From the NCBI RefSeq assembly GCF_004025965.2, contig NZ_SAYU02000041.1, positions 1-36,795 of the forward strand: a DNA stretch of 36,795 nucleotides, in the 5' to 3' direction. This DNA is from Phycicoccus flavus (GTDB taxonomy: Bacteria > Actinomycetota > Actinomycetes > Actinomycetales > Dermatophilaceae). The position numbers and the translations under genes were made by a program. Within the stretch, counting starts at the first letter, position 1, and every line of letters starts with the position of its first letter. The notes beneath the pieces are model-generated. The model saw only the letters and a program-made list of their open reading frames with translations, was not told where the DNA came from and did not search any database. Of the stretch, positions 8,293-34,397 are shown piece by piece.

Positions 8293-8298
8293 GGACGG

Positions 8299-16976: not shown

Positions 16977-16982
16977 GGCGCC

Positions 16983-17081: not shown

Positions 17082-17096
17082 GATCGACGGGCTGAG

Positions 17097-17163
17097 GACA
17101 GGTCAGCCGTCGGTCGACGGATGCAGACAGGTCATCCGTCGTGCGGCGGAGGAGGACAGGTCA
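17097..17163 (-). repeat. 29-bp tandem repeat including the sedolisin stop codon
   Basis: GACAGGTCA (+ strand) recurs at 17097, 17126 and 17155, exactly 29 bp apart, followed by variants of (T/G)CCG(T/C)CG. In gene orientation the first unit holds the last codons and TGA of the sedolisin gene (GGCGGATGACCTGTC). The next two repeat the sequence around that stop just downstream. Confidence 0.75.
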
Positions 17164-19110
17164 TCCGCCGTACCCGGAGACGGCGTCGAGCCAGGCGCCG
17201 CCGTCCGGGGATCCGACACCGGTCACGTCGTCGTAGCCAGGACGGACGTGGATGGTGAGTGAGTGGTCGGCGTCGAAGTACCGCGCCGAGTACCGGTAGC
17301 CGCCCGCGCCGCTCTCGCCGTCGACGTAGTCGACGCGCACGGTGCCCGGGTAGGTGCTGAGCGGCGCCGTCGTGATGTCCAGCGTCCCGCTGCCCCGTGC
17401 CGCGTAGAGCGCCGGGTTGGCCAGGCCGTAGGGGTGGCCGGCCCGCTGCATCGCGTCGGCGAACATCCCGGCGTAGAGCGGCGAGGAGAGACTCGTGCCG
17501 CCGATGCGGTACTCGTCGTAGTACGTGCCGTCGGAGAACGCCTGGGTCTCGCCGACGAGCATCCCGGTGTTGGGGTCGCCGAGGGCCGACACGTCGGGCA
17601 CGGTGCGCATCGCGCCGCCGCCGTAGGTCGTCGCGATCGAGTCGGGGACGACGCCCTTCTGGTACGACGGCTGCGCGAAGAGCCGGGAGGTCCCGCCGCC
17701 GCTGCCGTAGAGGTAGGTGGGTGTGCCCCACGTCGTCGTGGCCGGGTCGAGCGAGCTGCGGGCGGTCTCCCAGCCCACCTCGAACAGCCGCTGGTCGCTC
17801 CTGGTGACCCCGAGGGAGGTGCCGCCGACCGCGGTCACCCACGGGCTGGACGCCGGCCAGTCCGGCGTCGGGGTGGCCCCGGCGACGCCGCCGGTCTCGT
17901 CCCCGCTGTCGCCGGAGGAGAAGAACAGGCTGATGCCCTCGGCGGCGGCCTGGATCTGGGTGTCGAGCTGGGGCGCGATGTAGCCGCGGGGCAGGGCCTC
18001 GCCGCCGTAGCCGTAGGAGTTGCTGACGATGTCGGCGAGGTGGCCGTCGACGACCCTGTTCATGATCGCGTCGAGGTCGCGGTAGTTGTTCGGCGCGCCG
18101 ATGTAGACGAGGTCGGCGCCCGGAGCCATCGTGTGGACGGCCTCGAGGTCGAGGGTCTCCTCACCGGCCCAGCCGCCCGGGTCGTGCCGTGGGTTCGTCG
18201 GGTGCTGGTAGGTGCCGGGGGCGACGACCTGGCGGAAGTGGCCCTGCACCGACGGCAGCCCGTGCGCACGGGAGTAGGTCTCGAGGTCGGACTGGATGGT
18301 CGGCGAGGCGTAGGCGTCGATGACGCCGACGGTGACGCCGCGCCCGTCCGTCCCGCTCGCAATGGAGTCCTTCAGGCCGTAGGCGCCCTGGAGCTGGGAG
18401 CCGGCGTACCCGCAGGGGGCGAAGGTGCTCGGGCTGTCGGGCAGGGTCGTGCCGTCGGGCGTCGCCGTGTTCTGCACCGTCCTCTGGCCCCAGTACTCCG
18501 AGCAGGGCCGGGCGTTGCGGAAGCCGGCCGGCGGGTCGGCGAGCTTGTCGGCGTGGGCGAGGGTCTGGCTCTCGTCGAGCCCGACGACGGCCTCGACGCC
18601 GGTGAGCCCCGCGGGCACGTGCAGCGGCGTCGTGTTGCCGCGGACCGTGCGCCCGTCGACGCGGAACTGGGCGAACGAGGTGCCGAACGCCGCGGCGGCC
18701 CGGCCGGCGGTGCCGGTGGCCTCGACGTACTTGCGGTTGGCCGGGACGCTGCCGACCGAGAAGCCCTCGTGGCGCAACCAGCCCGAGACGGCACCGACGG
18801 TGCGGGCGGTGGGCGAGAAGCGGGCGCGGAACTGCTGCGGGGTGAGGAAGTGGCCGTAGTCGGCGCTGCCCTCGGTGGACACGGCCTGCGCGTACGCGGC
18901 GGCGCCGGCGGGGTCGCGGTAGCCGAGGTAGACCCGGAAGGTCACCGACGTCGAGGGCGCGGTCGCGCCGGTGCGGTGGGCCGCGGTCGCCCAGGACGGG
19001 ACGCTGCCGGGCAGGGTCTGGGCCGGGGTCGCCGACGCCGCGGCGGTGCCGGTGGCACCGAGCGCGAGCACGCCGGCGACGGCCAGCGCACTTCTGCGGG
19101 CACGGGACAT
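17161..19110 (-). CDS. Secreted sedolisin (peptidase S53, pro-kumamolisin type)
   Basis: 649 aa pre-pro-protease. Signal peptide: MSRARRSALAVAGVLALGA... with a likely cut after ASATPA (about residue 26-30). The pro-domain (about 45-190) includes the S53 activation fold (YGHFLTPQQFRARFSPT). The catalytic domain carries Glu317 and Asp321 in AGEETLDLE, oxyanion Asp401 in SSGDSGD and nucleophile Ser540 in GGTSLSSP. A terminal calcium-site loop is GYDDVTGVGSPDGG. Sedolisins are acid-active serine-carboxyl peptidases that self-process outside the cell. ATG 19110 has GGAGG 7 nt upstream; in-frame sequence before it lacks a signal. First accessory gene after the rne cluster; flanked by a 29-bp tandem repeat and a hairpin. 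Confidence 0.94.
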   Translation of the reverse strand: MSRARRSALAVAGVLALGATGTAAASATPAQTLPGSVPSWATAAHRTGATAPSTSVTFRVYLGYRDPAGAAAYAQAVSTEGSADYGHFLTPQQFRARFSPTARTVGAVSGWLRHEGFSVGSVPANRKYVEATGTAGRAAAAFGTSFAQFRVDGRTVRGNTTPLHVPAGLTGVEAVVGLDESQTLAHADKLADPPAGFRNARPCSEYWGQRTVQNTATPDGTTLPDSPSTFAPCGYAGSQLQGAYGLKDSIASGTDGRGVTVGVIDAYASPTIQSDLETYSRAHGLPSVQGHFRQVVAPGTYQHPTNPRHDPGGWAGEETLDLEAVHTMAPGADLVYIGAPNNYRDLDAIMNRVVDGHLADIVSNSYGYGGEALPRGYIAPQLDTQIQAAAEGISLFFSSGDSGDETGGVAGATPTPDWPASSPWVTAVGGTSLGVTRSDQRLFEVGWETARSSLDPATTTWGTPTYLYGSGGGTSRLFAQPSYQKGVVPDSIATTYGGGAMRTVPDVSALGDPNTGMLVGETQAFSDGTYYDEYRIGGTSLSSPLYAGMFADAMQRAGHPYGLANPALYAARGSGTLDITTAPLSTYPGTVRVDYVDGESGAGGYRYSARYFDADHSLTIHVRPGYDDVTGVGSPDGGAWLDAVSGYGG

Positions 19111-19303
19111 GAGGCCTCCAGGACTTCGGCGGTGGCTGCGGTGGCAGCCGCGTTCACTGAACCCCGGCGCGGCGGGTTCCACCCATGACGATCGTCACGA
19201 GGCGCGTGACCCGCGCGCCGGGCACGGCCCGGCGGGGTCAATGGGTGTGCGGCCGGTGCGCACCGGACGCCCAGCGCACCTCCAGCAGCCGTCCGGCGGA
19301 GTG

Positions 19304-20263
19304 TCAGTCTCCGAACCGGTCGCGGATGGCGACGAGCTCGACGGCGTGGGCGTCCAGGGCCCGGTCCTCGGCGCTCGCCGGCACCCACGCGGGCGTGGGC
19401 CGGGCGCGGCGCTGCGCGTCCAGGCCGACGAGGACGGTGCGGCAGTAGGTGGTGAGCTCCAGGGCGTCGGCGCCGCCGGCCGGGTCCCCGGAGCGGACGT
19501 GGACGCCGACGTGCATCGACGTCCGCCCGGTGTGCAGCAGCCGCGCCTCGACCTCGACGAGGTGCCCGATGCGCAGCGGCCGGTAGAAGCGCACCCCGCC
19601 GGTGAAGATCGCGACGTTGTCCGCGCTGCCGGTCCACCGGGTGGCGAGGACGTGGGCGGCCTCGTCGATCCACCGCATGACGATGCCGCCGTGCACCTTG
19701 CCGCCCCAGTTGACGTCGGTCGGGGCCGCGAGGAAGCGCATCGTGACCCGCGGTGCGGTGCCGGCGTCGGTGTACTCCTGGCCGGCCATCGCCGTCTCGA
19801 CCTCGGCGCGCAGCTCGGCCCGGCGCACCGCCCACTGCTGCTGGAGCTCCTCGCCGAGGGTCGTGGGGACCAGCGGCGGCACGGGGGTGGAGCGGCCGTC
19901 CTCCCCCACGGCGACGAAGACGATGAGGCAGCGGGTGGCCGGCTCGAGGGCGCGGGTGCGCGGCTGGCCCGCGGAGACGTCGACGGTGATGTGCATGGAC
20001 GTGCGGCCGGTGTGCACGACGGTGGCGGTCACCTCGACGAGGTCCCCGACCTCGACCGGGCGGGTGAAGCGGACGTTGCCGACGTAGGCCGTGACGCAGT
20101 ACGTGCCGCTCCAGCCGGCCGCCGCCGCGTACCCGGCCTTGTCGATCCACTCCAGCACCCGGCCGGCGCCCACCGACCCGGAGTGGCCGGCGTCGGTCGG
20201 GGCCGCGAGGAAGCGCAGCGTCACGTGCGTCGGCGGCCGGGGTGCGGGGTCCACGGGCCCCAT
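19304..20263 (-). CDS. Acyl-CoA thioesterase with two tandem hotdog domains
   Basis: 319 aa. The two halves align with each other. Domain 1 (about 8-140) reads THVTLRFLAAPTDAGHSG, RVLEWIDKAGYAAA, VRFTRPVEVGDLVEV, HTGRTSMHI. Domain 2 (about 165-290) reads VTMRFLAAPTDVNWGG, IVMRWIDEAAHVLA, VRFYRPLRIGHLVEV, HTGRTSMHV. This double-hotdog layout belongs to the acyl-CoA hydrolase (COG1607) group, which cleaves fatty acyl-CoA to free acid and CoA. The paired domains probably supply one full active-site set per chain. An ATG at 20263 and a GTG at 20254 are both possible. The GTG fits a leaderless start 7 nt after CAGGAT; I list the longer form. It follows the GNAT gene and a hairpin on the same strand. 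Confidence 0.9.
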   Translation of the reverse strand: MGPVDPAPRPPTHVTLRFLAAPTDAGHSGSVGAGRVLEWIDKAGYAAAAGWSGTYCVTAYVGNVRFTRPVEVGDLVEVTATVVHTGRTSMHITVDVSAGQPRTRALEPATRCLIVFVAVGEDGRSTPVPPLVPTTLGEELQQQWAVRRAELRAEVETAMAGQEYTDAGTAPRVTMRFLAAPTDVNWGGKVHGGIVMRWIDEAAHVLATRWTGSADNVAIFTGGVRFYRPLRIGHLVEVEARLLHTGRTSMHVGVHVRSGDPAGGADALELTTYCRTVLVGLDAQRRARPTPAWVPASAEDRALDAHAVELVAIRDRFGD

Positions 20264-20316
20264 CCTGGCGAAGCGGGCGGCGCCGGGTCCACGGGATGTG
20301 GGCGGCGCCACGGGCC

Positions 20317-20348
20317 GACCGCCCGGGTCTGCGCCGAGACGGGCGGTC
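20317..20348 (-). terminator. Hairpin after the GNAT gene
   Basis: GACCGCCCG (20317-20325) and CGGGCGGTC (20340-20348) pair perfectly around 14 nt, in which TCT/AGA can extend the stem. It lies 18-49 bp past the GNAT stop and about 54 bp before the thioesterase start on the same strand. Confidence 0.6.
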
Positions 20349-20365
20349 GGGCGGGAGCGAGCCCC

Positions 20366-20845
20366 TCACCGCTCCGCGCGCAGCTCCAGGACCATGAGGT
20401 CGTCCGCGGGCCGGAAGCCGGCCGAGCGGTAGAGCGGGCGGGAGACCTGGCTCGGGTTGAGGACGACGCGCACCATCCCCTCCTCACGGCACCAGGCGAG
20501 CATCGTGTCCACGAGCAGCCGGCCCACCCCGCGCCGCCGGTGGGCGGGGTCGGTCCAGACGTTCGCGACGTAGGCCCACCGGGCGTCGGGCGTCCCGGGG
20601 CGCGGCATCCGGTCGAAGACCTGGAGGTTCGCCATGCCGACCGCCCGTGCGTCGCCGGTGCGCACGACCCAGAGGCGCCGCGACCCCGCCTGCGCCTCCC
20701 ACCACTCCCCCAGCCGACGGGCGAAGCCGTCCTCGGCCGCGTCGGACTGCTCGCGCGTCCACGCCGTCCGCATGGCCGCGAGGTCGGCCAGGTCCGCGTC
20801 GCGCCCGGGGTCCAGCACCTCGACCCGGTACGCGTTCTCGCCCAA
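20366..20845 (-). CDS. GNAT family N-acetyltransferase
   Basis: 159 aa from TTG 20845 (MGENAYRVEVLDPG...), or 170 aa from an ATG at 20878. The acetyl-CoA site is seen in YVANVWTDPAHRRRGVGRLLVDTMLAWC (Q/RxxGxG/A as RRRGVG), followed by VRVVLNPSQVSRPLYRSAGFRPADDLMVLEL, the C-terminal strand-helix of GNAT folds. The substrate cannot be predicted. The TTG lies exactly 6 nt after TACGGT, the leaderless spacing seen elsewhere. The ATG at 20878 would sit in the same CATG as the divergent DUF1905 start, leaving no room for a promoter, so I prefer the TTG. Transcribed away from the DUF1905 gene. Confidence 0.85.
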   Translation of the reverse strand: MGENAYRVEVLDPGRDADLADLAAMRTAWTREQSDAAEDGFARRLGEWWEAQAGSRRLWVVRTGDARAVGMANLQVFDRMPRPGTPDARWAYVANVWTDPAHRRRGVGRLLVDTMLAWCREEGMVRVVLNPSQVSRPLYRSAGFRPADDLMVLELRAER

Positions 20846-20851
20846 TTCGCC

Positions 20852-20857
20852 ACCGTA
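20852..20857 (-). promoter_or_regulatory. Putative -10 element of the GNAT gene
   Basis: TACGGT on the minus strand, 6 nt before the TTG at 20845. It decides the start choice for the GNAT protein. Confidence 0.35.
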
Positions 20858-20876
20858 GGTCCTGCACACTCCGGTC

Positions 20877-21314
20877 ATGGAGTTCACGGCGGAGCTGGAG
20901 GCGACGGGCGGGAGCACGACGGGCTTCGTCGTGCCCGACGAGGTGGTGGAGGCGCTCGGCGGCGGCCGGCGGCCCAAGGTCGTCGCCACCGTGGCCGGGC
21001 ACAGCTGGCGGACGAGCATCGCGTCGATGGGCGGACGTTTCCTCCTCGGGGCGAGCGCGGCCGTGCGCGGCGCGGCGGGCATCGCGGCCGGGGAGACCCA
21101 CACCGTCGGCGTCGAGCTCGACACCGCGCCGCGGACCGTCGAGGTGCCGGACGACCTCGCCGCCGCCCTCGCCGGGTCACCAGGGGCGGCGGCGGCCTGG
21201 CAGGCGCTGAGCCACAGCGCGCAGCGCCGGCACGCCGAGTCCGTCCTGGGGGCGAAGCAGCCCGCCACCCGGGCCCGGCGGGTCGAGGCCGTCCTCACCG
21301 CCCTACGCGGCTGA
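20877..21314 (+). CDS. DUF1905 plus YdeI/OmdA-like small protein
   Basis: 145 aa. The N-terminal DUF1905 domain (about 1-80) reads FTAELEATGGSTTGFVVPDEVVEAL, RRPKVVATVAGHSWRTSI and ETHTVGVELDTAPR. The C-terminal helical YdeI-type segment (about 85-140) has VPDDLAAAL, AAAAWQALSHSAQRRHAESVLGAKQPATRARRV. Proteins of this arrangement are annotated as YdeI/OmpD-associated or bacteriocin-protection-like; their biochemical role is unclear. The gene diverges from the GNAT gene with starts only about 32 bp apart. Its last eight codons and TGA match the consensus of the 27-bp tandem repeat that follows, so the stop codon is part of an array. Confidence 0.85.
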   Translation: MEFTAELEATGGSTTGFVVPDEVVEALGGGRRPKVVATVAGHSWRTSIASMGGRFLLGASAAVRGAAGIAAGETHTVGVELDTAPRTVEVPDDLAAALAGSPGAAAAWQALSHSAQRRHAESVLGAKQPATRARRVEAVLTALRG

Positions 21315-21650
21315 CCCGTCCGGACCGCCCTGCGCGGCTGACCCGTCCGGACTGCCCTGCGCGACTGACTGTCCCCACCGGCCTGCGCGGCTGATGCGGC
21401 CTCACCGCGACCCACCCGGCTGACCCGTCGAGGTCACCCTGCGCCGATGACCCGTCCGGACCACCCTGCACCGCTGGCCCGTCCCCACCCGTCCGCGCGG
21501 CTGACCCGTTCGCTCTGCCCGCCGCGACCGGCGTGTCCGCGTTGCTCTTCGCCGCTACCCCCGTCCGCTCGGCCGTACGCGACTGACCCGTCCACACCAC
21601 CGTGCTCGGCTCGCCAGTCCCCACCGCCTTCCGCGATCGACCCGTCCGCT
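21284..21650 (+). repeat. 27-bp minisatellite seeded in the DUF1905 gene 3' end
   Basis: The core CTGACCCGTCCGGAC followed by CGCCCTGCGCGG recurs with CTG(A) anchors at 21311, 21338, 21365, 21391, 21420, 21447, 21474 and 21501. Weaker copies in register lie near 21583 and 21638. The period is 27 bp (one 26, one 29). The first unit is coding: GTCCTCACCGCC, CTACGCGGC, then TGA at 21312-21314. Each 27-bp unit is nine codons, so in the gene's frame most copies repeat Leu-Arg-Gly/Asp-stop. The 419-bp gap to the trypsin gene holds only this array plus a promoter-like TAGCGT at 21677-21682. Confidence 0.85.
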
Positions 21651-21733
21651 CCGCTCGCCGCGGCCTCGGCGCGGAGTAGCGTCCCGTCGTCGGCACCCGT
21701 CCGCCCCGTCAGCGACCGCAGAGGAGCACCGCC

Positions 21734-22492
21734 GTGCTACGTCGTCTCACCATCGCCCTGGTCACCGCCGGCGGGCTCGCGCTCGCCGCGGTTGCCCCGG
21801 CCTCCGCCATCACCGGCGGCGCGCCCGACGGCGACGGCCACCCGAGCGTCGGGGGGCTCGTCGCCGACGCGGCCTACTCCGACGGGACCTGGGTGTACTG
21901 CTCCGGGACGCTCGTCAGCCCGACGGTCTTCCTCACCGCCGCGCACTGCGACGACGACGGCGCGTCGGTGCGGGTCACCTTCTCCTCGGCCTACGAGGAC
22001 GGCGACCGCACGTACTCCGGCACCTTCCACGCCGACGCCGCCTACGGCAGCGCCCAGAACGACCCGCACGACATCGCCGTCGTCGTGCTCGACGAGCCGG
22101 TCACGGGCATCACGCCGGCGCGGCTGCCCGCGGCCGGGTCGCTGTCGGACCTGCGGCAGGGACAGTCCTTCACCTCGGTCGGGTACGGCGCCTACGAGGT
22201 CACCCGCGGCCCCGGCGGGCACGCGTTCCTCTACGACGACGTCCGCATGGTCAGCCGCGGCACGCTGCGGGCGGTCACCCCGGCGTGGCTGCGGCTGTCG
22301 ATGAACGCGGCGACCGGCGACGGCGGCACCTGCTACGGCGACTCCGGCGGGCCGAACTTCCTCGGCGACACCGACATCGTCGCGGCGACGACCATCACCG
22401 GCGACGCCATCTGCCGCGCGACCAACACCGACTACCGGCTCGACACCCCCGACGCCCGCGCCTTCCTCGGGCAGTACGTCACCCTCCCCTGA
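21734..22492 (+). CDS. Secreted trypsin-like serine protease (peptidase S1)
   Basis: 252 aa. Signal peptide MLRRLTIALVTAGGLALAAVAPASA, then ITGGAP, the typical mature N-terminus of S1 proteases (I-x-G-G), so activation may need only signal cleavage or a very short pro-segment. Catalytic triad: His71 in TAAHC, Asp113 in NDPHDIAVVVL, Ser204 in CYGDSGGP. Cys pairs flank His and Ser as in trypsins. Starts at GTG 21734 with GAGGAG about 8 nt upstream. This is a second secreted protease in the same 6-kb islet as the sedolisin, but of a different clan and on the other strand. Confidence 0.94.
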   Translation: MLRRLTIALVTAGGLALAAVAPASAITGGAPDGDGHPSVGGLVADAAYSDGTWVYCSGTLVSPTVFLTAAHCDDDGASVRVTFSSAYEDGDRTYSGTFHADAAYGSAQNDPHDIAVVVLDEPVTGITPARLPAAGSLSDLRQGQSFTSVGYGAYEVTRGPGGHAFLYDDVRMVSRGTLRAVTPAWLRLSMNAATGDGGTCYGDSGGPNFLGDTDIVAATTITGDAICRATNTDYRLDTPDARAFLGQYVTLP

Positions 22493-22600
22493 CCCGCCGC
22501 CCACCCTGCGGGGTCACCCCGCCCCGTCGACGAGCCGCCAACCCGCCGGGACCACCCGACCCGTCGAGCTACCGCCAGCCGGGCGAGACCACCCGACCCC
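22478..22600 (+). repeat. Degenerate 35-38 bp repeat after the trypsin gene
   Basis: Units starting near 22478 (in the last codons, GTCACCCTCCCCTGACC), 22513, 22550 and 22587 share (G/A)(T/C)CACCC, CCCGTCGA and CCGCC blocks. Similarity is modest, but the first unit again contains the gene's stop codon, as at three other genes. Confidence 0.4.
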
Positions 22601-22627
22601 CTACCCCCCACGTCGCCCCTGCCACGG

Positions 22628-22708
22628 CCGACATCACCCCGCCTTGTCACCGAGACCCCGGAAACGAACCCCGGCCTCGGTGACATTTCGGGGTCACCCC
22701 GAAATGTC
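22628..22708. repeat. 81-bp palindrome-bearing direct repeat, copy 1
   Basis: It contains a hairpin TGTCACCGAG/CTCGGTGACA (22645-22654, 22676-22685). A perfect 27-bp palindrome follows (22682-22708), with arms GACATTTCGGGGT and ACCCCGAAATGTC around one base. The two structures share GACA, so they are mutually exclusive or stacked. It lies between the converging trypsin and radical-SAM genes. Confidence 0.85.
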
Positions 22709-22761
22709 AAGGCCAGGGGCGGCTGCCGAGGCCGGCGACCGGCCGTGGCCCCGGGTCGAGA

Positions 22762-22842
22762 CCGACATCACCCCGGTTTGTCACCGAGACCCCGGAAACG
22801 AACCCCGGCCTCGGTGACATTTCGGGGTCACCCCGAAATGTC
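22762..22842. repeat. 81-bp palindrome-bearing direct repeat, copy 2
   Basis: It differs from copy 1 (22628-22708) at only two positions near its left end (CCCCGGT versus CCCCGCC) and has the same two palindromes, the second at 22816-22842. It ends 38 bp before the radical-SAM stop codon. Near-identity over 81 bp, next to 53 bp of unrelated sequence between the copies, indicates a recent duplication or selection. Bidirectional termination is a plausible function. Confidence 0.85.
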
Positions 22843-22880
22843 CGCCGGCTCCGGGGGGCGTCGGGGTGGGTGAGCGGGGG

Positions 22881-24848
22881 TCAGTGGGCGTGCTCGGCCA
22901 TGCGGTCGCGGCCGGAGCCGAGGACGGTGAGGGGGAGGAGGGTCTTGCCGGTGGGCCCGATCTCGATGTCGGTGCCCATCTGCGGGCACACGCCGCAGTC
23001 GAAGCACGGCGTCCAGCGGCAGTCGTCGACCTCGGTCTCGTCGAGGGCGTCGAGCCAGTCCTGCCAGAGCCACTCCTTGTCGAGCCCGGAGTCGATGTGG
23101 TCCCAGGGCAGGACCTCGGTCTCCTCGCGCTCGCGGGTGGTGTACCACGCGACGTCGACCGGCCCGCCGGCGAAGGCCCGCTCCGCCGCGGCCATCCAGC
23201 GGCCGTAGTCGAAGTGCTCGGACCAGCCGTCGAAGCGGCCGCCGTCGCGCCAGACCTCCTCGATGACCCGGCCGACCCGACGGTCGCCGCGCGAGAGCAG
23301 CCCTTCGACGACCCCGGGCTGGCCGTCGTGGTAGCGGAAGCCGATGGAGCGGCCGTAGCGCTTGTCGGAGCGGATGGCCTCGCGCAGCTTGGCGAGGCGG
23401 GCGTCGGTCTCCTCCGCGCCGAGCTGGGCGGACCACTGGAACGGCGTGTGCGGCTTGGGCACGAACCCGCCGATGGACACCGTGCACCGGATGTCGCGGC
23501 GGCCGCTGACCTCGCGGCCGGTCTCGATGACACGCTTGGCGAGCTCGGCGATCTGGAGGACGTCCTCGTCGGTCTCGGTCGGCAGGCCGCACATGAAGTA
23601 GAGCTTGACCTGCCGCCACCCGGCGCCGTACGCCGCGGCGACGGTGCGGATGAGGTCGTCCTCGCTCACCATCTTGTTGATGACCTTGCGGATCCGCTCC
23701 GACCCGCCCTCGGGCGCGAACGTCAGCCCGGAGCGGCGGCCGTTGCGCGTCAGCTCGTTGGCCAGGTCGATGTTGAACGCGTCGACCCGGGTCGAGGGCA
23801 GCGACAGCCCGGTGTTCGTCCCCTCGTAGCGGTCGGCGAGGCCCTTGGTGACGTCGGCGATCTCGGAGTGGTCCGCCGAGCTCAGCGACAGCAGCCCGAC
23901 CTCCTCGAACCCGGTGGCGGCCAGGCCCTGCTCGACCATCTCGCCGATGCCGGTGATCGAGCGCTCGCGCACCGGGCGGGTGATCATCCCGGCCTGGCAG
24001 AAGCGGCAGCCGCGGGTGCACCCGCGGAAGATCTCGACCGACATCCGCTCGTGGACCGACTCGGCCAGCGGGACCAGCGGCTGCTTCGGGTAGGGCCAGG
24101 CGTCGAGGTCCATCACGGTGTGCTTGCTGACCCGCCACGGCACGCCGGGGGTGTTCGGCGCCACCCGCTGAATGCGCCCGTCCGGCAGGTAGTCGACGTC
24201 GTAGAACCGCGGGACGTACACGCCACCGGTCCGCGCCAGGCGCAGGAGCAGCTCGTGGCGTCCGCCGGGCCGACCGGCGCGCTTCCACTCGCCGACGATG
24301 TCGGTGATGGCGAGGACGGCCTCCTCGCCGTCGCCGACGACGGCGGCGTCGACGAAGTCGGACACGGGCTCGGGGTTGAAGGCGGCGTGACCGCCGGCGA
24401 CGACGACCGGGTGCTCGTCGGTGCGGTCGACCGCGTGCAGCGGCACGCCCGCGAGGTCCAGCGCCGTGAGGAGGTTGGTGTACCCGAGCTCGGTGGAGAA
24501 GGACACGCCGAGCAGGTCGAAGTCGCCGACCGCGCGGTGGGCGTCGACGGTGAACTGCGGGACGCCGTGCTCGCGCATCAGCGCCTCGAGGTCCGGCCAC
24601 ACGGCGTAGGTGCGCTCGGCGAGGGCGTCCTCGCGCTCGTTGAGCACCTCGTACAGGATCATGACGCCCTGGTTCGGCACGCCGACCTCGTAGGCGTCGG
24701 GGTACATGAGCGACCAGCGGACGGTGGCGTCCCCGGCGAGGTCCCAGGGCTTGACCGTGGAGTTCAGCTCGCCGCCGACGTACTGGATCGGCTTGCTCAC
24801 GCGCTCGAGCAGCGGCTCGAGGGCGGGGAAGACGGACTCTCCGGACAT
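22881..24848 (-). CDS. TIGR03960 family B12-binding-domain/radical SAM protein
   Basis: 655 aa. The N-terminal region (about 15-240) has the B12-binding-like fold (VGVPNQGVMILYEVLNE, DLLGVSFSTELGYTNLLTAL, VVAGGHAAFNPEPV). The radical SAM core carries IFRGCTRGCRFCQAGM with CxxxCxxC for the 4Fe-4S cluster at about residues 276-283, then GLTFAPEGGSERIR and FMCGLPTETDEDV. The C-terminus has Cys-rich CRWTPCFDCGVCP, probably a further metal site. The reaction is not established; co-occurrence with TIGR03936 and rne/rplU genes points to RNA or ribosome modification. A -10-like TACCCT lies 6 nt before the ATG. In this genome its usual neighbour is displaced by the 17161-22492 islet. Confidence 0.94.
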   Translation of the reverse strand: MSGESVFPALEPLLERVSKPIQYVGGELNSTVKPWDLAGDATVRWSLMYPDAYEVGVPNQGVMILYEVLNEREDALAERTYAVWPDLEALMREHGVPQFTVDAHRAVGDFDLLGVSFSTELGYTNLLTALDLAGVPLHAVDRTDEHPVVVAGGHAAFNPEPVSDFVDAAVVGDGEEAVLAITDIVGEWKRAGRPGGRHELLLRLARTGGVYVPRFYDVDYLPDGRIQRVAPNTPGVPWRVSKHTVMDLDAWPYPKQPLVPLAESVHERMSVEIFRGCTRGCRFCQAGMITRPVRERSITGIGEMVEQGLAATGFEEVGLLSLSSADHSEIADVTKGLADRYEGTNTGLSLPSTRVDAFNIDLANELTRNGRRSGLTFAPEGGSERIRKVINKMVSEDDLIRTVAAAYGAGWRQVKLYFMCGLPTETDEDVLQIAELAKRVIETGREVSGRRDIRCTVSIGGFVPKPHTPFQWSAQLGAEETDARLAKLREAIRSDKRYGRSIGFRYHDGQPGVVEGLLSRGDRRVGRVIEEVWRDGGRFDGWSEHFDYGRWMAAAERAFAGGPVDVAWYTTREREETEVLPWDHIDSGLDKEWLWQDWLDALDETEVDDCRWTPCFDCGVCPQMGTDIEIGPTGKTLLPLTVLGSGRDRMAEHAH

Positions 24849-24854
24849 CCCCCC

Positions 24855-24860
24855 AGGGTA
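24855..24860 (-). promoter_or_regulatory. Putative -10 element for leaderless radical-SAM mRNA
   Basis: TACCCT on the minus strand with 6 nt (all G) to the ATG at 24848. The G-run could also act as a weak SD, but it abuts the ATG, which is too close. Confidence 0.5.
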
Positions 24861-26946: not shown

Positions 26947-27003
26947 TCCCCGACGAGACCGGGAGGGGTGACACACTCCGGGCGGGACCGGACATGGAGG
27001 GGC

Positions 27004-28439: not shown

Positions 28440-28472
28440 CCGGACCCCCCGGCGACCGGACCGACCGGCCGG

Positions 28473-30341
28473 TCAGCCGGAGTAGTGGGCGTCGAGCAGG
28501 GGCTTGTACTTCTCGGCGACGACCTTGCGCTTGAGCTTGAGGCTCGGGGTGAGCTCGCCGTCCTCGATCGAGAGGTCGTGCTCGAGGATCGTGAACTTCT
28601 TGATCGTCTCCCAGCGGTTGAGCCCGGCGTTGAGCTCGTCGACGTACCCCTGCACCATCTCGCGGCAGGCGTCGGACGAGACGACCTCGGCGTAGGGCCG
28701 GCCGGCCATCCCGTGCTGCGCGGCCCAGCCCTCCATCGCGTCGGGGTCGAGGGTGACGAGGGCGGAGACGAAGTTGCGGTCGGCGCCGTGGACGATGAGC
28801 TGGCTGGCGTAGGGGCACAGGCCCTTGAAGGTCGACTCGATGACCGCCGGGGCCACGTACTTGCCGCCGCTGGTCTTGAACAGGTCCTTCTTGCGGTCGG
28901 TGATCCGCAGGAAGCCGCGCTCGTCGAGCTCGCCGATGTCGCCGGTGTGCAGCCACCCGTCGGCGTCGATGGTCTCGGCCGTCGCCTCGGGGTTGTTGTG
29001 GTAGCCCTCCATGTTGCCCGGGCCCCGGAGCAGGACCTCGCCGTCCTCGGCGATCCGCACGTCGATGCCGGGCAGCTGCCAGCCCACCGTGCCGTACCGG
29101 TAGGCCCGGATCCGGTTGACGAAGGAGGCAGCGCTGGTCTCGGTGAGCCCGTAGCCCTCGGCGACGAGCATGCCCATGCCGTCGAACCAGCGGGCGACGT
29201 CCTGGTTCAGCGCGGCGGACCCGGAGATGAAGAAGCGCACGTTGCCGCCGAAGCGGTCCCGGATCTTGGACCCGACGAGCTTGTCGAGGACGGCGTGCTT
29301 GCGGGCCAGCAGTCCGGAGGGAGCCTCGCCGCGCTCGCGCAGCTCGCTGACCTGCCGGCCGGTGTCGCTGGCGGCCCGGAAGAGCTTGAGCTTGAGGCCG
29401 CCCTCCTCCTCCATCATCATCTGGACGCGGGCGTAGGCCTTCTCGAAGATGCGCGGGGCGGCGCCCATGAAGGTCGGCTTCACGACCGCGAGGTTGTCGA
29501 CGATCTTGTCGATGCGCCCGTCGATGGCGGTCGCGAACCCGATCTGCAGCGGCAGGGTCAGCAGGTTCTTGCCGAAGACGTGCGCCAGCGGCAGCCAGAG
29601 GTACTGGAGGTCGTCCTCGCGGATGATGTCGATGGCCTCGACCGCGGCGCCCTCGTAGGTCCAGCAGCTGTGCGGCAGGCGCACGCCCTTCGGCCGGCCG
29701 GTGGTGCCCGAGGTGTAGATGATCGTCGCCAGCTGGTCGGCGCGGGTCGCGTCGATCCGGGCGTCGACGGCCCCGGGGTCGCCGTCGAGGTACTCGCGCC
29801 CGAGCCGGCGCAGCTCGTCGAGGGTCAGCGTCCAGTCGTCCCCGTCCGGGGCGCCCTCCATGAGCACGACCTTGCCGACGCCCGGCGCCCGGTCGCGGAT
29901 GGAGCGCAGCTTCTCCAGCTGCTCGGCGTTCTCGGCGAAGACGACCTTGGTGCCGGAGTCGCTGAGGATGAAGGCGACGTCGTCGGCGATGGTCGTCGGG
30001 TAGATCGTCGTCGTGGCCGCGCCGGCGACCATGATCGCGAGGTCGGCCAGCGCCCACTCGTAGCGCGTGCCCGAGGCGATGGCCACGCGGTCCTCGGGCT
30101 CGACCCCGAGGGCGATGATCCCCGCCCCGAGCTCGCGGACGACCTCGTCGGCCTCGCGCCAGGTCACCGTCACCCAGTCCTCGCCGTCGCCCGAGGGCAC
30201 GGCGTGGAGGAAGGCGGGCCGGTCCGCGGAGGCGGCGACCCGGTCCCGGAACAGGTGTCCGACGCTCTGGGCGCGTCGCTCGAGGATGCCGTGGTCGACC
30301 GGCTCGTCCTGGGGGGTGTGGATCTGCGGCGTCGCGCGCAT
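28473..30341 (-). CDS. Long-chain fatty-acid--CoA ligase (FadD15-like AMP-binding enzyme)
   Basis: 622 aa adenylate-forming enzyme that activates fatty acids with ATP and CoA. P-loop TIIYTSGTTGRPKGV (about 185-199); PLAHVFGKNL; EGYGLTETSAAS; GWLHTGDIGEL; RITDRKKDLFKTSGGKYVAP with the hinge Asp and linker; C-terminal Lys in TPSLKLKRKVV. The full-length 600-aa form with an N-terminal helix of the LERRAQSVGHLFRDRV type matches the long-chain synthetases of actinobacteria. Start ATG 30341. A 76-bp gap after the RodA-like gene may hold its promoter (GTGACAAGAT near 30385-30394 on the minus strand). No partner fatty-acid genes are adjacent. Confidence 0.94.
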   Translation of the reverse strand: MRATPQIHTPQDEPVDHGILERRAQSVGHLFRDRVAASADRPAFLHAVPSGDGEDWVTVTWREADEVVRELGAGIIALGVEPEDRVAIASGTRYEWALADLAIMVAGAATTTIYPTTIADDVAFILSDSGTKVVFAENAEQLEKLRSIRDRAPGVGKVVLMEGAPDGDDWTLTLDELRRLGREYLDGDPGAVDARIDATRADQLATIIYTSGTTGRPKGVRLPHSCWTYEGAAVEAIDIIREDDLQYLWLPLAHVFGKNLLTLPLQIGFATAIDGRIDKIVDNLAVVKPTFMGAAPRIFEKAYARVQMMMEEEGGLKLKLFRAASDTGRQVSELRERGEAPSGLLARKHAVLDKLVGSKIRDRFGGNVRFFISGSAALNQDVARWFDGMGMLVAEGYGLTETSAASFVNRIRAYRYGTVGWQLPGIDVRIAEDGEVLLRGPGNMEGYHNNPEATAETIDADGWLHTGDIGELDERGFLRITDRKKDLFKTSGGKYVAPAVIESTFKGLCPYASQLIVHGADRNFVSALVTLDPDAMEGWAAQHGMAGRPYAEVVSSDACREMVQGYVDELNAGLNRWETIKKFTILEHDLSIEDGELTPSLKLKRKVVAEKYKPLLDAHYSG

Positions 30342-30417
30342 CAGTGGACCGTCCTCGACGTCGGTGGCGTGGTCCGACGCATCTTGTCACAGCGTTCCCT
30401 CAGGAGGAACGCCGCCG

Positions 30418-31581
30418 CTACCGGCGAGTCACCTCCGGGTCCCCGGCGGCGGCGTCGACGAGCCCCACGGCGAGCCAGGAGACGAGCATCGAGGTGCCGC
30501 CGTAGGACACGAACGGCAGCGGCAGGCCGGTGACCGGGAGCAGCGCGAGGTTCATCCCGACGTTCTCGACGACCTGCACGGCGAGCCAGGTCGCAACCCC
30601 CACGCCGACGAGCCGGCCGAAGGGGTCCTCGGCGCGGGCGGCGACGACGAGGACGCGCACCACGAGGACCCCGAGGAGGACGACGAGCCCCGCCGCCCCG
30701 ACGAAGCCGAGCTCCTCGGCGGCCACCGAGAAGACGAAGTCGTTGAGCTGGAACGGGACGAAGCCGCCCTGGGTGCGCGGCCCGGACATGAAGCCCTGCC
30801 CCCACAGCCCGCCCCCGCCGACCGCGCGCCGTACCTGCGCGGTCTGGTACCCGGCGCCGAGCGGGTCGGCGGTGGGGTCGGCGAAAGCGGTGAGCCGGGC
30901 CCGCTGGTAGTCGCTGAGCAGCGGGGTCGTCCACGCCGCGACGGCGGCCGCCACCGCGAGACCGAGGGCCAGGGCGACCCACCGGCGCGGCGCCCCGCCG
31001 ACGAGCACGACGGCGAAGCCCAGCGCCAGCAGGACCAGGGCGGTGCCGAGGTCGGGCTGGACGACCACGAGCGCCGTGGGCACCCCGACGAGGGCGGTGG
31101 CGGAGACCAGCCGGCGCAGCCCGGGGTCGCTGCCGCGGTCCAGCGCCCCGGCGAGCAGGGCCGCGAGGGCCAGGGTGAGGGCGGGCTTGACGAGCTCGGC
31201 GGGCTGCAGGGTGAAGCCGGCGGCCAGCGGGATCCAGGACCGGGACCCGTTGATCGTCGCGCCGACCGGGGTGCGCACGAGGAGCAGGAGGACGACGGCC
31301 GCGGCCCAGGCCCAGGGGGCGGCCGAGCGGAGGCGGCCGCGGCCGGCCCGGCTGACGAGCACGGCGACGGCCAGCCCCACGGCCGCCGTGACGAGGTGCC
31401 GCACGAGGTAGGCCGAGCCCGCGGTCCGCTCCGTCGCGGACCAGACGAGCAGTGCCCCGATGACCGAGGCGCCACCGGCGGCGACGAACAGCCCGATGTC
31501 GTGCCGGGCCCAGACCCCGCCGACACGGGCGCCCGACGACCCGGGCACCGCCGGCGCCGACCGGATCAGGCGGGCGGCCAC
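30418..31581 (-). CDS. SEDS family peptidoglycan polymerase (RodA/FtsW-like)
   Basis: 387 aa, about ten membrane helices. Signature stretches are GSRSWIPLAAGFTLQPAELVKPALTL, VQPDLGTALVLLALG, TTPLLSDYQRARLTAF, GAGYQTAQVRRAVGGGGLWGQGF, FVFSVAAEELGFVG and the last helix LLPVTGLPLPFVSYGGTSML. These match the RodA glycosyltransferase that polymerises lipid II; the Asp implicated in catalysis is expected in the loop after FQPAE. RodA is favoured over FtsW by GFTLQPAELVK and GLWGQGF. GTG start 31581 lies 7 bp after ribF, so it is probably translated from the ribF mRNA. No class B PBP, mreBCD or FHA gene is adjacent. Confidence 0.9.
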   Translation of the reverse strand: MAARLIRSAPAVPGSSGARVGGVWARHDIGLFVAAGGASVIGALLVWSATERTAGSAYLVRHLVTAAVGLAVAVLVSRAGRGRLRSAAPWAWAAAVVLLLLVRTPVGATINGSRSWIPLAAGFTLQPAELVKPALTLALAALLAGALDRGSDPGLRRLVSATALVGVPTALVVVQPDLGTALVLLALGFAVVLVGGAPRRWVALALGLAVAAAVAAWTTPLLSDYQRARLTAFADPTADPLGAGYQTAQVRRAVGGGGLWGQGFMSGPRTQGGFVPFQLNDFVFSVAAEELGFVGAAGLVVLLGVLVVRVLVVAARAEDPFGRLVGVGVATWLAVQVVENVGMNLALLPVTGLPLPFVSYGGTSMLVSWLAVGLVDAAAGDPEVTRR

Positions 31582-31588
31582 ACCGGGC

Positions 31589-32551
31589 TCAGGCGGGGAC
31601 GATCTTCGCGAGCCGCTCGCGGCAGTGCGCGACGTCGCGGGACATGGCCTCGGTCAGCTCGTCGACGCTCTCGAAGCGCAGCGTGGGCCGGATGTGGTCG
31701 ACGAACTCGACCATGACCGTCTCGTCGTAGAGGTCGAGGTCGTCGCGGTCCAGGACGTAGGCCTCGACGGTGCGCGGGTCACTGGTCTCGAAGGTCGGGT
31801 TGGTCCCGATGCTCACCGCGGCCGGCATCGTCCGGTCGGGCTCGCCCTCGGGCAGGTCGAGGCGGGTCAGCCAGCCGGCGTAGACGCCCTCCTCCGGCAC
31901 GAGGCCGAGGGAGTCCGGGCCGAGGTTCGCCGTCGGGTAGCCGAGCCCCCGGCCGCGGTGGTTGCCGTGCACGACGGTACCGACGACGCGGTGGGGACGG
32001 CCGAGGATCCGGGCCGCGTCGGCGACGTCGCCGGAGGCCAGACGCCGGCGGATCACGGTGGACGAGAAGCGCTCGCCGTCGCCGACGTCGTCGAGCGCGA
32101 TGACCTCGAAGCCGAACTGCTCGCCGAGGTCGACGAGCGTCCCGATGTCCCCGGAGTTGCGGTAGCCGAAGCGGGTGTCGACGCCGACGACGACGCACCG
32201 GGCGTCCAGGCCGCGCACGAAGACCGACCGGACGAAGTCACCCGGGGTCTGCTGGGCGAACTCGGTCGTGAAGTCCAGGTCCAGGAGGCCGTCGACACCG
32301 GTGTCGGCGATGAGCTCGTCCCGGATCCGGGACGGCGCGATGATCTCCGGCGCCCGCTCGGGGTGCAGGACGGCGATCGGGTGCGGGTCGAAGGTGATGG
32401 CGACCGTGGGCAGGCCCAGCCGCTGCCCCGCCTCGACGAGCGCGGTGAGCACCGCCTTGTGGCCGCGGTGGACCCCGTCGAAGTTGCCGAGCGTGAGCAC
32501 GCACGGGCGCAGGGCCTCGGGCGTACGGGCGGGGTCGGACCATCGGTGCAC
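31589..32551 (-). CDS. ribF: Bifunctional riboflavin kinase/FAD synthetase
   Basis: 320 aa; makes FMN from riboflavin and then FAD. The N-terminal FAD synthetase domain has VLTLGNFDGVHRGHKAV (about 18-34), ITFDPHP, FVRSVFVRGLDARCVVVGVDTRFGYRNSGD and STVIRRRLASGDV. The C-terminal riboflavin kinase domain (about 190-310) has VVHGNHRGRGLGYPTANLG, GVYAGWLTRL and EAYVLDRDDLDLYDETVMVEFVDHIRPTLRF. GTG at 32551 (VHRWSD) matches the usual M-x-R-W start and lies 7 nt after a -10-like TAGAGT. A GTG 9 bp upstream (32560), one base after the truB stop, is the alternative if it is only coupled to truB. Confidence 0.96.
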   Translation of the reverse strand: MHRWSDPARTPEALRPCVLTLGNFDGVHRGHKAVLTALVEAGQRLGLPTVAITFDPHPIAVLHPERAPEIIAPSRIRDELIADTGVDGLLDLDFTTEFAQQTPGDFVRSVFVRGLDARCVVVGVDTRFGYRNSGDIGTLVDLGEQFGFEVIALDDVGDGERFSSTVIRRRLASGDVADAARILGRPHRVVGTVVHGNHRGRGLGYPTANLGPDSLGLVPEEGVYAGWLTRLDLPEGEPDRTMPAAVSIGTNPTFETSDPRTVEAYVLDRDDLDLYDETVMVEFVDHIRPTLRFESVDELTEAMSRDVAHCRERLAKIVPA

Positions 32552-32558
32552 GGAGCCC

Positions 32559-32564
32559 ACTCTA
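32559..32564 (-). promoter_or_regulatory. Putative -10 element of ribF, overlapping the truB stop
   Basis: TAGAGT on the minus strand; its first three bases are the truB TAG stop. It is 7 nt from the GTG at 32551. If used, it gives ribF a leaderless transcript independent of infB-rbfA-truB. Confidence 0.4.
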
Positions 32565-33515
32565 CGAACTCGCGGGGGCGAACACGACGAGGGACCGCGC
32601 GGTGGCGCCGCTCTCGTCGAGCATCGCGACGAGGGTGCCGTCGGGACCGAGTGCGGCGACCGGGCCGGGGTGCCCCGGGCGGGCCGAGGGGACCCGCTGC
32701 CCGTGGCCGACGGCGCGGGCCTCGTCCGCGCTCAGCGCGCGCAGGGGGAAGGCGGCGCGGGCGGCGTCGGCCGACGGGAGCACGGGCATCGGCTCGCCCT
32801 GCCGGGCCTCGAGCTCGGCGAGCGGGTGGGCGTGCGCCAGGGTGAACCCGCCGACCCGGGTGCGCCGCAGGGCGGTGAGGTGCCCGGCGGTCCCGAGGGC
32901 GGCGCCGAGGTCGCGGGCCAGGGCGCGCACGTAGGTGCCCGACGACACGGTGGCCTCGACGTCGACGTCCAGCACCGGCGTCCCGTCGTCGGCGACGGCG
33001 GACCGGGTGGCCAGGACCTCCAGCCGGGAGACGGTGACCGGGCGGGCGGCCAGCTCGACCTGCGCGCCGGAACGCACCCGGTGGTAGGCCCGCTCGCCGT
33101 CCACCTTGACGGCGCTGACGGCGCTCGGGACCTGCTCGATGTCTCCGGTGAGGGCGGTGAGCGCGTCGGCCAGGGCCCCGTCGTCGACGGACGCGGCGCC
33201 GGGGGCCCCCGTCACCTCGCCCTCGGCGTCGTCGGTGAGCGTGCCCTGCCCGAGCCGGACGGTGGCGGTGTAGTCCTTGTCGCTCCCGACGAGGAAGGTC
33301 AGCAGACGGGTCGCCCGGCCGACGCCGAGGACGAGGACGCCCGTCGCCATCGGGTCCAGGGTGCCGGCGTGCCCGACCTTGCGGGTGCCGCACAGCCGGC
33401 GGGAGCGGGCGACGACGTCGTGGCTCGTCCAGCCCGCGGGCTTGTCGACGACGAGGACGCCGTCCGGGGACGGGGCCGGGCGAGGCCCGGGGGCGCGGTC
33501 AGACCGCGTCGGCAC
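32562..33515 (-). CDS. truB: tRNA pseudouridine(55) synthase
   Basis: 317 aa; isomerises U55 in the T-loop of tRNAs. The N-terminal VLVVDKPAGWTSHDVV, KVGHAGTLDPMATGVLVLGVGRATRL (with the catalytic Asp of GTLDP), KDYTATVRLGQ, VPSAVSAVKVDGERAYHR and VSSGTYVRALARDLG motifs are all present. A C-terminal PUA-like part ends at about 315. GTG 33515 overlaps the rbfA end by 17 bp, the usual rbfA-truB coupling. Confidence 0.97.
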   Translation of the reverse strand: MPTRSDRAPGPRPAPSPDGVLVVDKPAGWTSHDVVARSRRLCGTRKVGHAGTLDPMATGVLVLGVGRATRLLTFLVGSDKDYTATVRLGQGTLTDDAEGEVTGAPGAASVDDGALADALTALTGDIEQVPSAVSAVKVDGERAYHRVRSGAQVELAARPVTVSRLEVLATRSAVADDGTPVLDVDVEATVSSGTYVRALARDLGAALGTAGHLTALRRTRVGGFTLAHAHPLAELEARQGEPMPVLPSADAARAAFPLRALSADEARAVGHGQRVPSARPGHPGPVAALGPDGTLVAMLDESGATARSLVVFAPASS

Positions 33516-33948
33516 CCGGGTCCTCGGGCTCGCGCTCCTTGCGGTACGGGTCGGACTCGCCCGCGTACGCGGCCCCGACGGACGTGCGCGCCACCTCGGC
33601 GTCGCGCTCGCGGGCCTCCTTGAGCAGGTCCTCGAGGTGCGCGGCGTTCTCCGGGACGGCGTCGGCCACCCACTCCAGGGTGGGGGTCAGCCGGATGCCC
33701 AGCTGCTTGCCCACGAAGGAGCGCAGCCGTCCCTTGCTGGCCTCCAGGAGGCGGGCGGTGGTCGCGCGCTGCTCCTCGTCGCCGAAGACGGTGTAGAAGA
33801 GCGAGGCGTGCTGGAGGTCGCCGGTGACGCGGACGTCGGTGACGGTGACGAACCCGAGGTCGGGGTCCTTGACGATCGCGTCGAGGTTCTCGGCGGTCAC
33901 CGTCTTGATCCGGTCGGCGACCTTGCGGGCGCGGGCTTCGTCGGCCAC
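33499..33948 (-). CDS. rbfA: 30S ribosome-binding factor A
   Basis: 149 aa KH-fold protein that assists 16S rRNA 5'-end maturation and cold adaptation. Motifs: ARKVADRIKTVTAENLDAIVKDPDLGFVTVTDVRVTGDLQHASLFYTVFG, then LRSFVGKQLGIRLTPTLEWVAD (key part RLTPTLEWV). The actinobacterial C-terminal tail is acidic and basic (AYAGESDPYRKEREPEDPG). GTG 33948 has AGGAGGA about 6 nt upstream. It is separated from infB by 421 bp of hairpin- and repeat-rich DNA, more than is usual for this operon. Confidence 0.96.
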   Translation of the reverse strand: MADEARARKVADRIKTVTAENLDAIVKDPDLGFVTVTDVRVTGDLQHASLFYTVFGDEEQRATTARLLEASKGRLRSFVGKQLGIRLTPTLEWVADAVPENAAHLEDLLKEARERDAEVARTSVGAAYAGESDPYRKEREPEDPGADAV

Positions 33949-34014
33949 GGCGTCCTCCTCTGCTCGGTGGGCGGATGGGCGGCATCCACCCTAGTCGCGC
34001 AGCGGGGGACGACT

Positions 34015-34049
34015 CACGCCGCGCACCCCCCGTGGGGGTACGCGGCGTG
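34015..34049 (-). terminator. Two-part hairpin upstream of rbfA
   Basis: CACGCCGCG/CGCGGCGTG (34015-34023, 34041-34049) enclose a second perfect stem CCCCC/GGGGG with loop CGT, separated by a CA/TA internal loop. It is the last structure before rbfA in the infB-to-rbfA gap, so it could terminate or attenuate infB transcripts, or process the mRNA. Confidence 0.6.
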
Positions 34050-34090
34050 GGTCGTGGGTCTCGCCCGGGGCTCAGGCGCCCGGCTTCGAC

Positions 34091-34397
34091 CTCGCTGCGC
34101 TCACGCGCGGGGCTTCGCCCACGCAGAGCGTGGGACCCGCCGCATCTCGGGGGACGAGATGCGGTCGGCGCCCCACGCCCTCGCTGCGCTCACGCGCGGG
34201 GCTTCGCCCACGCAGAGAGCGTGGGACCCGCCGCATCTCGGGGGACGAGATGCGGTCGGCGCCCCACGCCCTCGCTCCGCTCACGCGCGGGGCTTCGCCC
34301 ACGCTGAGCGTGGGACCCGCCGCATCTCGGGGGACGAGATGCGGTCGGCGCCCCACGCCCTCGCTGCGCTCACGCGCGGGGCTTCTCCCGCATCTCG
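34091..34397 (-). repeat. 89-91 bp tandem array reaching into the infB 3' end
   Basis: CTCGCTGCGCTCACGCGCGG starts at 34091, 34180, 34271 (one change) and 34360, giving periods of 89, 91 and 89 bp. Each full unit holds two perfect hairpins: CCCACGC/GCGTGGG with loop AGA, AGAGA or TGA, and CCGCATCTCG-GGGGA-CGAGATGCGG. The last, shortened unit is the infB end: it contains the infB TGA (34372-34370) and the codons for MREKPRA. The copies repeat this stop region with about 20 bp inserted between GAGATGCGG and GAAGCCCCGCGCG. Any short frame inside is repeat-derived and not a gene. Confidence 0.9.

Follow-up and report, generated by a model that had tools for sequence, protein, structure and literature searches.

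The tandem arrays found at the ends of unrelated genes in Phycicoccus flavus are best regarded as ordinary minisatellites combined with a constraint at starts: gene ends tolerate repeats, gene beginnings do not. A probability of roughly 80% is assigned to this reading, which is preferred because the arrays cross stop codons as often as gap geometry predicts, avoid starts, and have no unit, frame or fold in common. On this view the arrays would for the most part be repeat DNA of a familiar kind and would not amount to a new system. The case illustrates how gap geometry, together with constraint at start codons, can generate a conspicuous pattern at several genes, and it supplies a straightforward null model for "repeats at stop codons".

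Arrays and Genes in the Window

The window, that is, the whole analysed stretch of 36,795 nucleotides, contains the following genes and arrays, the latter as delimited by Tandem Repeats Finder (TRF).

17161-19110, minus strand: sedolisin (pro-kumamolisin) protease gene (Pfam pro-kumamolisin/subtilase), 3′ end overlapped by a 29-bp array
17097-17167, minus strand: sedolisin array, 29 bp × 2.4, with 7 nt, stop included, in the gene; three successive hairpins
20877-21314, plus strand: DUF1905/OmdA gene (Pfam DUF1905 and OmdA)
21289-21654, plus strand: DUF1905 array, degenerate, 27 bp × 13.5, 66% matches, higher-order period 109 bp, with 26 nt, stop included, in the gene
21734-22492, plus strand: trypsin-like protease gene (Pfam trypsin)
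22496-22599, plus strand: trypsin array, 37 bp × 2.8, none of it in the gene
34370-36622, minus strand: infB, translation initiation factor IF-2 (Pfam IF-2)
34090-34389, minus strand: infB array, 89 bp × 3.3, 96% matches, with 20 nt, stop included, in infB; strong hairpins
6214-6733, no strand: intergenic array, 174/94 bp, between two divergent genes, crossing no stop
8300-8430, no strand: intergenic array, 37 bp, G-rich, 113 nt past one stop and 13 nt from another, crossing neither

All four gene-end arrays of the original prediction are recovered by TRF. The accompanying claim that they begin inside the genes, over the stop codon, holds for sedolisin, DUF1905 and infB (3/4) and fails for trypsin, where 3 nt separate the stop from the array start. 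The two intergenic arrays are counter-examples within the window itself. The stop was also said to lie in the first unit; this is the case in 23 of the 24 stop-crossing arrays of the genome sample described below, but it is expected nearly automatically because an open reading frame terminates at its first in-frame stop. An additional weak array, absent from the prediction, crosses a stop at 28423-28462 (17 bp × 2.4, TRF score 59; gene end 28439). The 5′ end of infB was left open to 36793 by the gene finder, near the contig edge. At gathering scores, the single Rfam match in the window is a tRNA (888-960).

Position of Arrays Relative to Gap Geometry

The genome sample comprised 1.82 Mb of the same genome in 101 stretches, including the window, with genes called by our own gene finder. 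In the geometric null model each unit was placed randomly within its own gap and was forbidden only from crossing starts. At a TRF score of at least 60, 24 of the 68 gap arrays cross a stop, compared with 22.3 ± 2.9 expected; at scores of at least 80 and at least 100 the counts are 18/51 (18.9 expected) and 12/37 (13.7 expected). Removal of the window gives 21/62, 16/45 and 10/32 at scores 60, 80 and 100, with 20.4, 17.1 and 12.1 expected. Stop overlap, for which the original prediction had proposed a TRF check with absence of enrichment as the refuting outcome, thus equals what gap geometry predicts. The periods of the 24 stop-crossing arrays range from 16 to 141 bp and, because gaps are short and units long, many units in downstream gaps must include the gene end. 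The depth reached into the gene is nevertheless at most 35 nt in all 24, although periods extend to 141 bp, and is shallower than the uniform model suggests.

Starts behave differently from stops: only 2, 2 and 1 arrays cross them at scores 60, 80 and 100, versus 10.2, 8.3 and 6.4 expected in a model that lets units cross starts freely. The start call may be wrong for one of the two (L008, 1,216 nt inside a gene). When placement is randomized ignoring gaps, stop crossings appear enriched (11 vs 3.7 expected), and purely intergenic arrays show an enrichment at least as large (16 vs 3.6). In gaps bounded by one stop and one start, with starts barred, the first 1.02 Mb gave 6 stop crossings vs 3.1 expected (9 arrays, score 80) and 8 vs 4.5 (18 arrays, score 60); the 1.82 Mb gave 10 vs 8.7 (28 arrays) and 12 vs 10.1 (38 arrays). 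When the 50 bp upstream of starts are also barred, the expectations for 1.82 Mb become 11.4 and 13.4 for the same 10 and 12 crossings. In 0.4 Mb of the congener G008, stop-crossing gap arrays number 1/12 (3.4 expected, score 60) and 0/8 (2.0 expected, score 80).

Duplications Anchored at Stops and Starts

Anchored duplications were counted in gaps of at least 100 nt, at 471 gene ends and 690 starts. A duplication spans the stop at 14/471 gene ends, versus 0.0 after shuffling of the downstream side, and thus is not due to chance. The frequency is 29/471 at 30 nt past the stop and 27/471 at 60 nt, so that the stop itself has fewer duplications than the position 30 nt beyond it (p 0.028). At starts the count is 0/690, rising to 2/690 at 30 nt upstream and 12/690 at 60 nt upstream, and the difference between stops and starts is pronounced (Fisher p 2.9e-6). 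Inside genes, the count is 6/1241. In G008 (0.4 Mb), duplications occur at none of 137 stops and none of 178 starts, and at 10/137 positions 30 nt beyond the stop.

These figures bear on the proposal that duplications originate at stop codons through a shared process operating on 3′ ends, such as transcription termination, R-loops or breaks. The 3′ flanks are richer in duplications than the 5′ flanks even at 60 nt, and unrelated arrays end the same DUF1905 gene across species, with a 27-bp unit here and, in G008 and G004, 51-bp units that begin 17 and 12 nt beyond the stop, respectively; an array is present at this gene end in 3/6 genomes compared. However, the peak of duplications does not lie at the stop, stop crossing matches the geometric expectation, and the excess over 5′ flanks would be expected from constraint on promoters, although a 3′-linked process could also account for it. 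Taken together, such a process, as put forward in the original prediction, is quite unlikely. Stop codons as hot spots were likewise rejected: the geometric null is matched, duplications are fewer at the stop than 30 nt out, and none of the 137 sampled stops of G008 has one.

For the preferred reading, ordinary minisatellites with constraint at starts, the following course may be envisaged. Local tandem duplications would arise via slippage or template switching in this 74% GC genome and persist where they are harmless. A duplication spanning a stop would leave the first copy, and hence the protein, intact, and selection would probably remove duplications that extend into a start or into the tens of bases immediately before it.

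Relatedness of the Units

Direct comparison shows the four array units to be mutually unrelated, in agreement with the original prediction that unit sequence differs at every gene and that no single repeat family is involved. By eye, the sedolisin and DUF1905 units have a short word in common, GGCTGACC(C/T)GTCC; the pair yielded no match in the unit comparison (E up to 1e-3). A common post-stop motif was rejected: the words recovered by a 9-mer scan were for the most part TGA-plus-GC ones (TGACCCCCC, for example), and GAGCGNAGCGA lies near 1/1585 gene ends.

Insertion of one mobile, REP- or MIRU-like repeat family at stop codons is very improbable. The hairpin word of the infB unit is dispersed, with 23-32 bp matches at one other place in the genome and at others in the genus. 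Furthermore, other intergenic palindromes of the genome are dispersed, giving 66 and 27 blastn matches (matches rather than copies, as one palindrome copy can yield two), and the unit of one stop-crossing array elsewhere (L023) is related to those of three other gap arrays (L107, L136 and L139). Against this, the DUF1905, sedolisin and trypsin units have zero matches outside the window (blastn, 1.82 Mb, E up to 1e-4), and no Y1_Tnp (RAYT-type) transposase occurs in the genome, with the positive control found in 5/14 genomes. For these four array units, the mobile-family reading is thus largely refuted.

Folding, Reading Frame and Possible Function

The infB array has a predicted fold of −218.7 kcal/mol (z −9.11 vs shuffles), and the sedolisin array forms three successive hairpins whose arm sequences differ while pairing is kept (z −3.86). 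With folding so clearly beyond that of shuffled sequences in these two, individual arrays may have a use. A general use, with 3′-end hairpins stabilizing mRNA, terminating transcription or slowing ribosomes at the stop, or with repeats as a source of backup stops, is nonetheless unlikely. In its favor, the available text of PMC12306157 reports that E. coli ribosomes stall at REPs located no more than 15 nt from a stop, and the DUF1905 unit of 27 bp is a multiple of three, so that the following stops fall in frame. On the other hand, neither the DUF1905 array (z +1.42) nor the trypsin array (z −0.46) shows structure beyond shuffles, which excludes shared stem-loops, and the infB array is missing from 8/12 congeners. 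The hairpin-then-T-run arrangement of tandem intrinsic terminators occurs at 0 sites in 16900-34560, where 1.6 are expected in shuffles, in a scan that covers the T-run type only. Finally, the best TRF period modulo 3 equals 0, 1 and 2 in 6, 8 and 10 of the 24 stop-crossing arrays (the 6 becomes 7 if DUF1905 is taken at 27 rather than 109), which reveals no frame preference and rules out in-frame backup stops as a general rule. The shared use suggested in the original prediction is accordingly not borne out.

The infB Locus

Among the four, infB is the best single locus. An array homologous to it is found in 3-4 of 12 congeners, G002, G007 and G010 among them; G006 is without it. The infB C-terminus is identical in 12/12, with 0, 1 or 3 extra copies of the gene end, a variation seen between species. 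The expectation that copy number can change without altering the protein is thereby supported, and infB offers a compact natural case of an essential gene whose end gains and loses an array while the protein remains untouched.

The infB unit holds both direct and inverted copies of the last infB codons. It is possible, although doubtful, that the coding end acts as donor. Template switching at a foldback would copy its last codons outward, inverted and direct. Concerted evolution of the coding and downstream copies would follow, with repeat homogenization determining which synonymous codons an essential gene carries; recombination between copies could always excise the array precisely, restoring an intact stop.

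Comparison with Known Systems

The arrays consist, by TRF, of head-to-tail units in the range of about 10-100+ bp that characterizes minisatellites (VNTRs). Mycobacterial MIRUs are tandem arrays of about 50-100 bp units between genes, variable in copy number and belonging to one dispersed family. The present arrays resemble them as actinobacterial intergenic tandem repeats but differ in that 3/4 match nothing outside the window; no related unit recurs across many loci, the infB unit being confined to infB apart from the 23-32-bp matches to its hairpin word.

REP/BIME palindromes lie close to or over stop codons, and REP ends can supply the stop, according to the available text of PMC3733652 and PMC12306157. 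Palindromes near or over stops are thus a common feature, whereas REPs are dispersed and accompanied by a RAYT (Y1) transposase; here the array units are not dispersed, the genome has no Y1 transposase, and 2/4 arrays lack structure beyond shuffles.

The closest published parallel concerns the VNTRs of Yersinia pestis (n=88), 16 of which overlap ORF ends (10 stops and 6 starts) and 84.1% of which have units of 7-21 bp; the available text also notes that copy-number change at a stop might affect the ORF less (PMC3689786). The remark in the original prediction that it knew of no named system behaving in this way is consequently superseded, as stop-overlapping VNTRs were already in print. A partial survey of the literature, which leaves absence unproven, found no paper testing minisatellite enrichment at stop codons against gap geometry. 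Relative to the portion of the Y. pestis study available, stop overlap and locus-to-locus variation of unit sequence are common to both systems, whereas the arrays described here occur at 74% GC, have longer units, overlap starts more rarely (2/68 gap arrays) and have had their position tested against the geometry of the gaps.

Arrays at the four gene ends

All four arrays proposed in the original prediction were detected with TRF in the window, which is contig C90 in a draft assembly of 153 contigs totalling 4.26 Mb (GC 74% in the genome sample). The neighboring genes encode a sedolisin, a DUF1905/OmdA protein (best named match an uncultured Tetrasphaera MAG, 80% identity, in a search that may omit very near genomes), a trypsin-like protease and IF-2.

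17097-17167, sedolisin array: begins 7 nt inside the gene, stop codon included
21289-21654, DUF1905 array: begins 26 nt inside the gene, stop codon included
22496-22599, trypsin array: begins past the stop, with 3 nt between
34090-34389, infB array: begins 20 nt inside the gene, stop codon included

The description of the arrays as beginning inside genes is therefore accurate for three of them, but not for the trypsin array. A further weak array at 28423-28462 (17 bp x 2.4) spans the stop of a gene ending at 28439; with a score of 59, it was left out of the counts, for which the cut was 60.

Stop crossing and gap geometry

The test of stop crossing covered 1,824,294 bases, made up of the window and 100 other stretches of its genome, where a purpose-written codon-model gene finder called 1,663 genes (89% coding) and TRF arrays of period ≥ 15 were merged. 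Gene starts are predicted, the sequence used amounts to 43% of this draft genome plus 0.4 Mb from another, and repeat detection is biased toward younger repeats. At score ≥ 60, 247 arrays were obtained: 176 within genes, 68 in intergenic gaps (7 of them start-start gaps) and 3 at stretch edges. Simple random placement, applied to the first 1.02 Mb, yields 11 stop-crossing arrays vs 3.7 expected; because arrays lying wholly between genes show no less enrichment (16 vs 3.6), the fitting null is one based on gaps. Each array was collapsed to a single unit, which was tried at all positions touching its gap.

The 68 gap arrays cross the stop in 24 cases and the start in 2. If units may not cross starts, this null predicts 22.3 ± 2.9 stop crossings; if they may, it predicts 19.6 at stops and 10.2 at starts. 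Stop crossings number 18 vs 18.9 expected at score 80 (n = 51), 12 vs 13.7 at score 100 (n = 37) and 8 vs 10.6 at score 150 (n = 25), while start crossings are 2 vs 8.3, 1 vs 6.4 and 1 vs 5.6, respectively. Excluding the window, since it was picked for its arrays, leaves 21 of 62 vs 20.4 expected. In congener G008 (20 stretches, 0.4 Mb), the stop is crossed by 1 of 12 gap arrays vs 3.4 expected at score 60, and by 0 of 8 vs 2.0 at score 80. The proposed enrichment at stop codons, for which a TRF test had been suggested, is not borne out against this null in the 1.82 Mb. The stop does lie within the first unit in 23 of the 24 stop-crossing arrays, as described for the four genes, but this is no special feature: translation terminates at the first in-frame stop, and for a unit containing that stop the position is nearly forced.

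A more sensitive test, independent of array calling, used an 18-nt word across the stop (≥ 6 coding nt) and counted gene ends with a copy of it (≥ 16 matching positions) at a downstream offset of 12-150 nt. For gaps ≥ 100 nt, duplications occur at 14 of 471 gene ends, compared with 29 and 27 when the anchor is moved 30 or 60 nt downstream. The mirrored test gives 0/690 at starts, 2/690 at 30 nt and 12/690 at 60 nt upstream; controls with shuffled copy side give 0 to 1 per class. Gaps ≥ 60 nt show 16/650 at stops, 29/650 at +30, 0/883 at starts and 6/1241 within genes, and G008 shows 0/137, 10/137, 0/178 and 1/256 in the same order. Duplication tolerance therefore increases in the order start (no case seen), coding sequence, stop and free gap, and the stop codon is a slope of tolerance rather than a peak. 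The absence of duplications at starts suggests selection there.

Shared use, frame and sequence

Folding scored against dinucleotide shuffles differs between the arrays (z = -9.11 for infB, -3.86 for sedolisin, -0.46 for trypsin, +1.42 for DUF1905), and no T-run terminators were found in 16900-34560. The 24 stop-crossing periods leave remainders 0, 1 and 2 modulo 3 in 6, 8 and 10 cases, DUF1905 being entered at its best-scoring 109 bp (the basic 27 bp has remainder 0). A 3'-end process or shared use behind the arrays is thus not supported, with stop crossing following geometry, no peak at the stop, unequal folding and no frame preference.

The claim that units are unrelated between the four genes is supported: across all gap arrays, no related unit pair involves any of the four. 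Such pairs do exist elsewhere, and the stop-crossing L023 has a family in L107, L136 and L139. The DUF1905, sedolisin and trypsin units have no match outside the window in the 1.82-Mb sample. The word GGCTGACC(C/T)GTCC, noted by eye around the stop in the sedolisin and DUF1905 units, is probably a chance likeness in a GC-rich context.

Array change at infB

The infB C-terminus (...EMREKPRA*) is kept in 12/12 genus genomes, whereas extra copies of the 16-nt gene end within 600 nt downstream number 3 in the window genome and G010, 1 in G002 and G007, and 0 in the other eight. As predicted, unit number can change without altering the protein. The infB tree requires at least two array changes on well-supported branches (four as drawn). 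One 90-bp unit distinguishes the sisters G002 and G006 (support 100/100 on this tree): it is placed between the stop and the same downstream sequence and is flanked by the repeated infB gene end, the pattern that gain or exact excision through recombination between copies should give.

The unit is homologous among the four array-bearing genomes; outside infB, matches are limited to its hairpin word (23-32 bp). That word also occurs at L002 1501-1527, upstream of a frame reading MKVILTHEVSGLGTAGDVV, presumably ribosomal protein bL9. In the G002 unit, the final infB codons recur twice, once inverted (21/24 positions by eye count) and once in direct orientation, the latter copy broken up by the hairpin word, a layout that could be left by template switching at a foldback. 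The infB end of the window genome reads GAAGCCCCGCGCGTGA vs the common GAAGCCGCGCGCCTGA, and its variants recur in all three downstream copies, consistent with either concerted evolution or a recent new expansion starting at the gene end; a strong claim is weakened by the array-less G003, which shares one of the two variants.

Other loci and repeat families

Five further genomes have a close DUF1905 gene (L155-L159, L159 covering < 100 nt beyond the stop), and the 27-bp array was not seen in any of them. Two of the five, G008 and G004, carry an unrelated 51-bp array there, 17 and 12 nt past the stop. No array crosses the stop in the six nearest genus sedolisins compared (44-47% identity, perhaps not true orthologues).

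A dispersed tandem family of 51-bp period is found in L155, L156, L222 and L232 (G008, G004), its unit combining a conserved core, CCCGCACGTGCGGGGTTATCGCTGTCCG, with ~23 bp that differ between loci and are mostly alike inside one array (four arrays). At ≤ 2 mismatches, the core has 56 matches in G004, 45 in G008, 11 in G005 and 0 in the other nine of 12 genomes (reversed-pattern control 0). Intergenic palindromes of the ACATTTCGGGGTCACCCCGAAATGTC type lie at window 22620-22712 and 22763-22842; counting self and double matches, this family has 66 blastn matches in the 1.82 Mb, of which 3 fall within genes. A Y1_Tnp transposase was not found in the genome bearing them. A long near-perfect inverted repeat at 8200-8296, directly 3' of a stop, has 27 blastn matches in 1.82 Mb, self matches counted, with 0 in genes. 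Between two divergent genes, 6214-6733 holds 174-bp and 94-bp repeats with CGACGACACG...CGTGTCGTC arms, related to two L124 arrays.

Comparison with known systems

The pattern at the gene ends is genuine and has an ordinary explanation. VNTRs overlapping stop codons, as three of the four arrays do, are already described in PMC3689786, which remarks that copy number at the stop might affect the ORF less. Likewise, PMC3733652 and PMC12306157 report REPs at or near stop codons.
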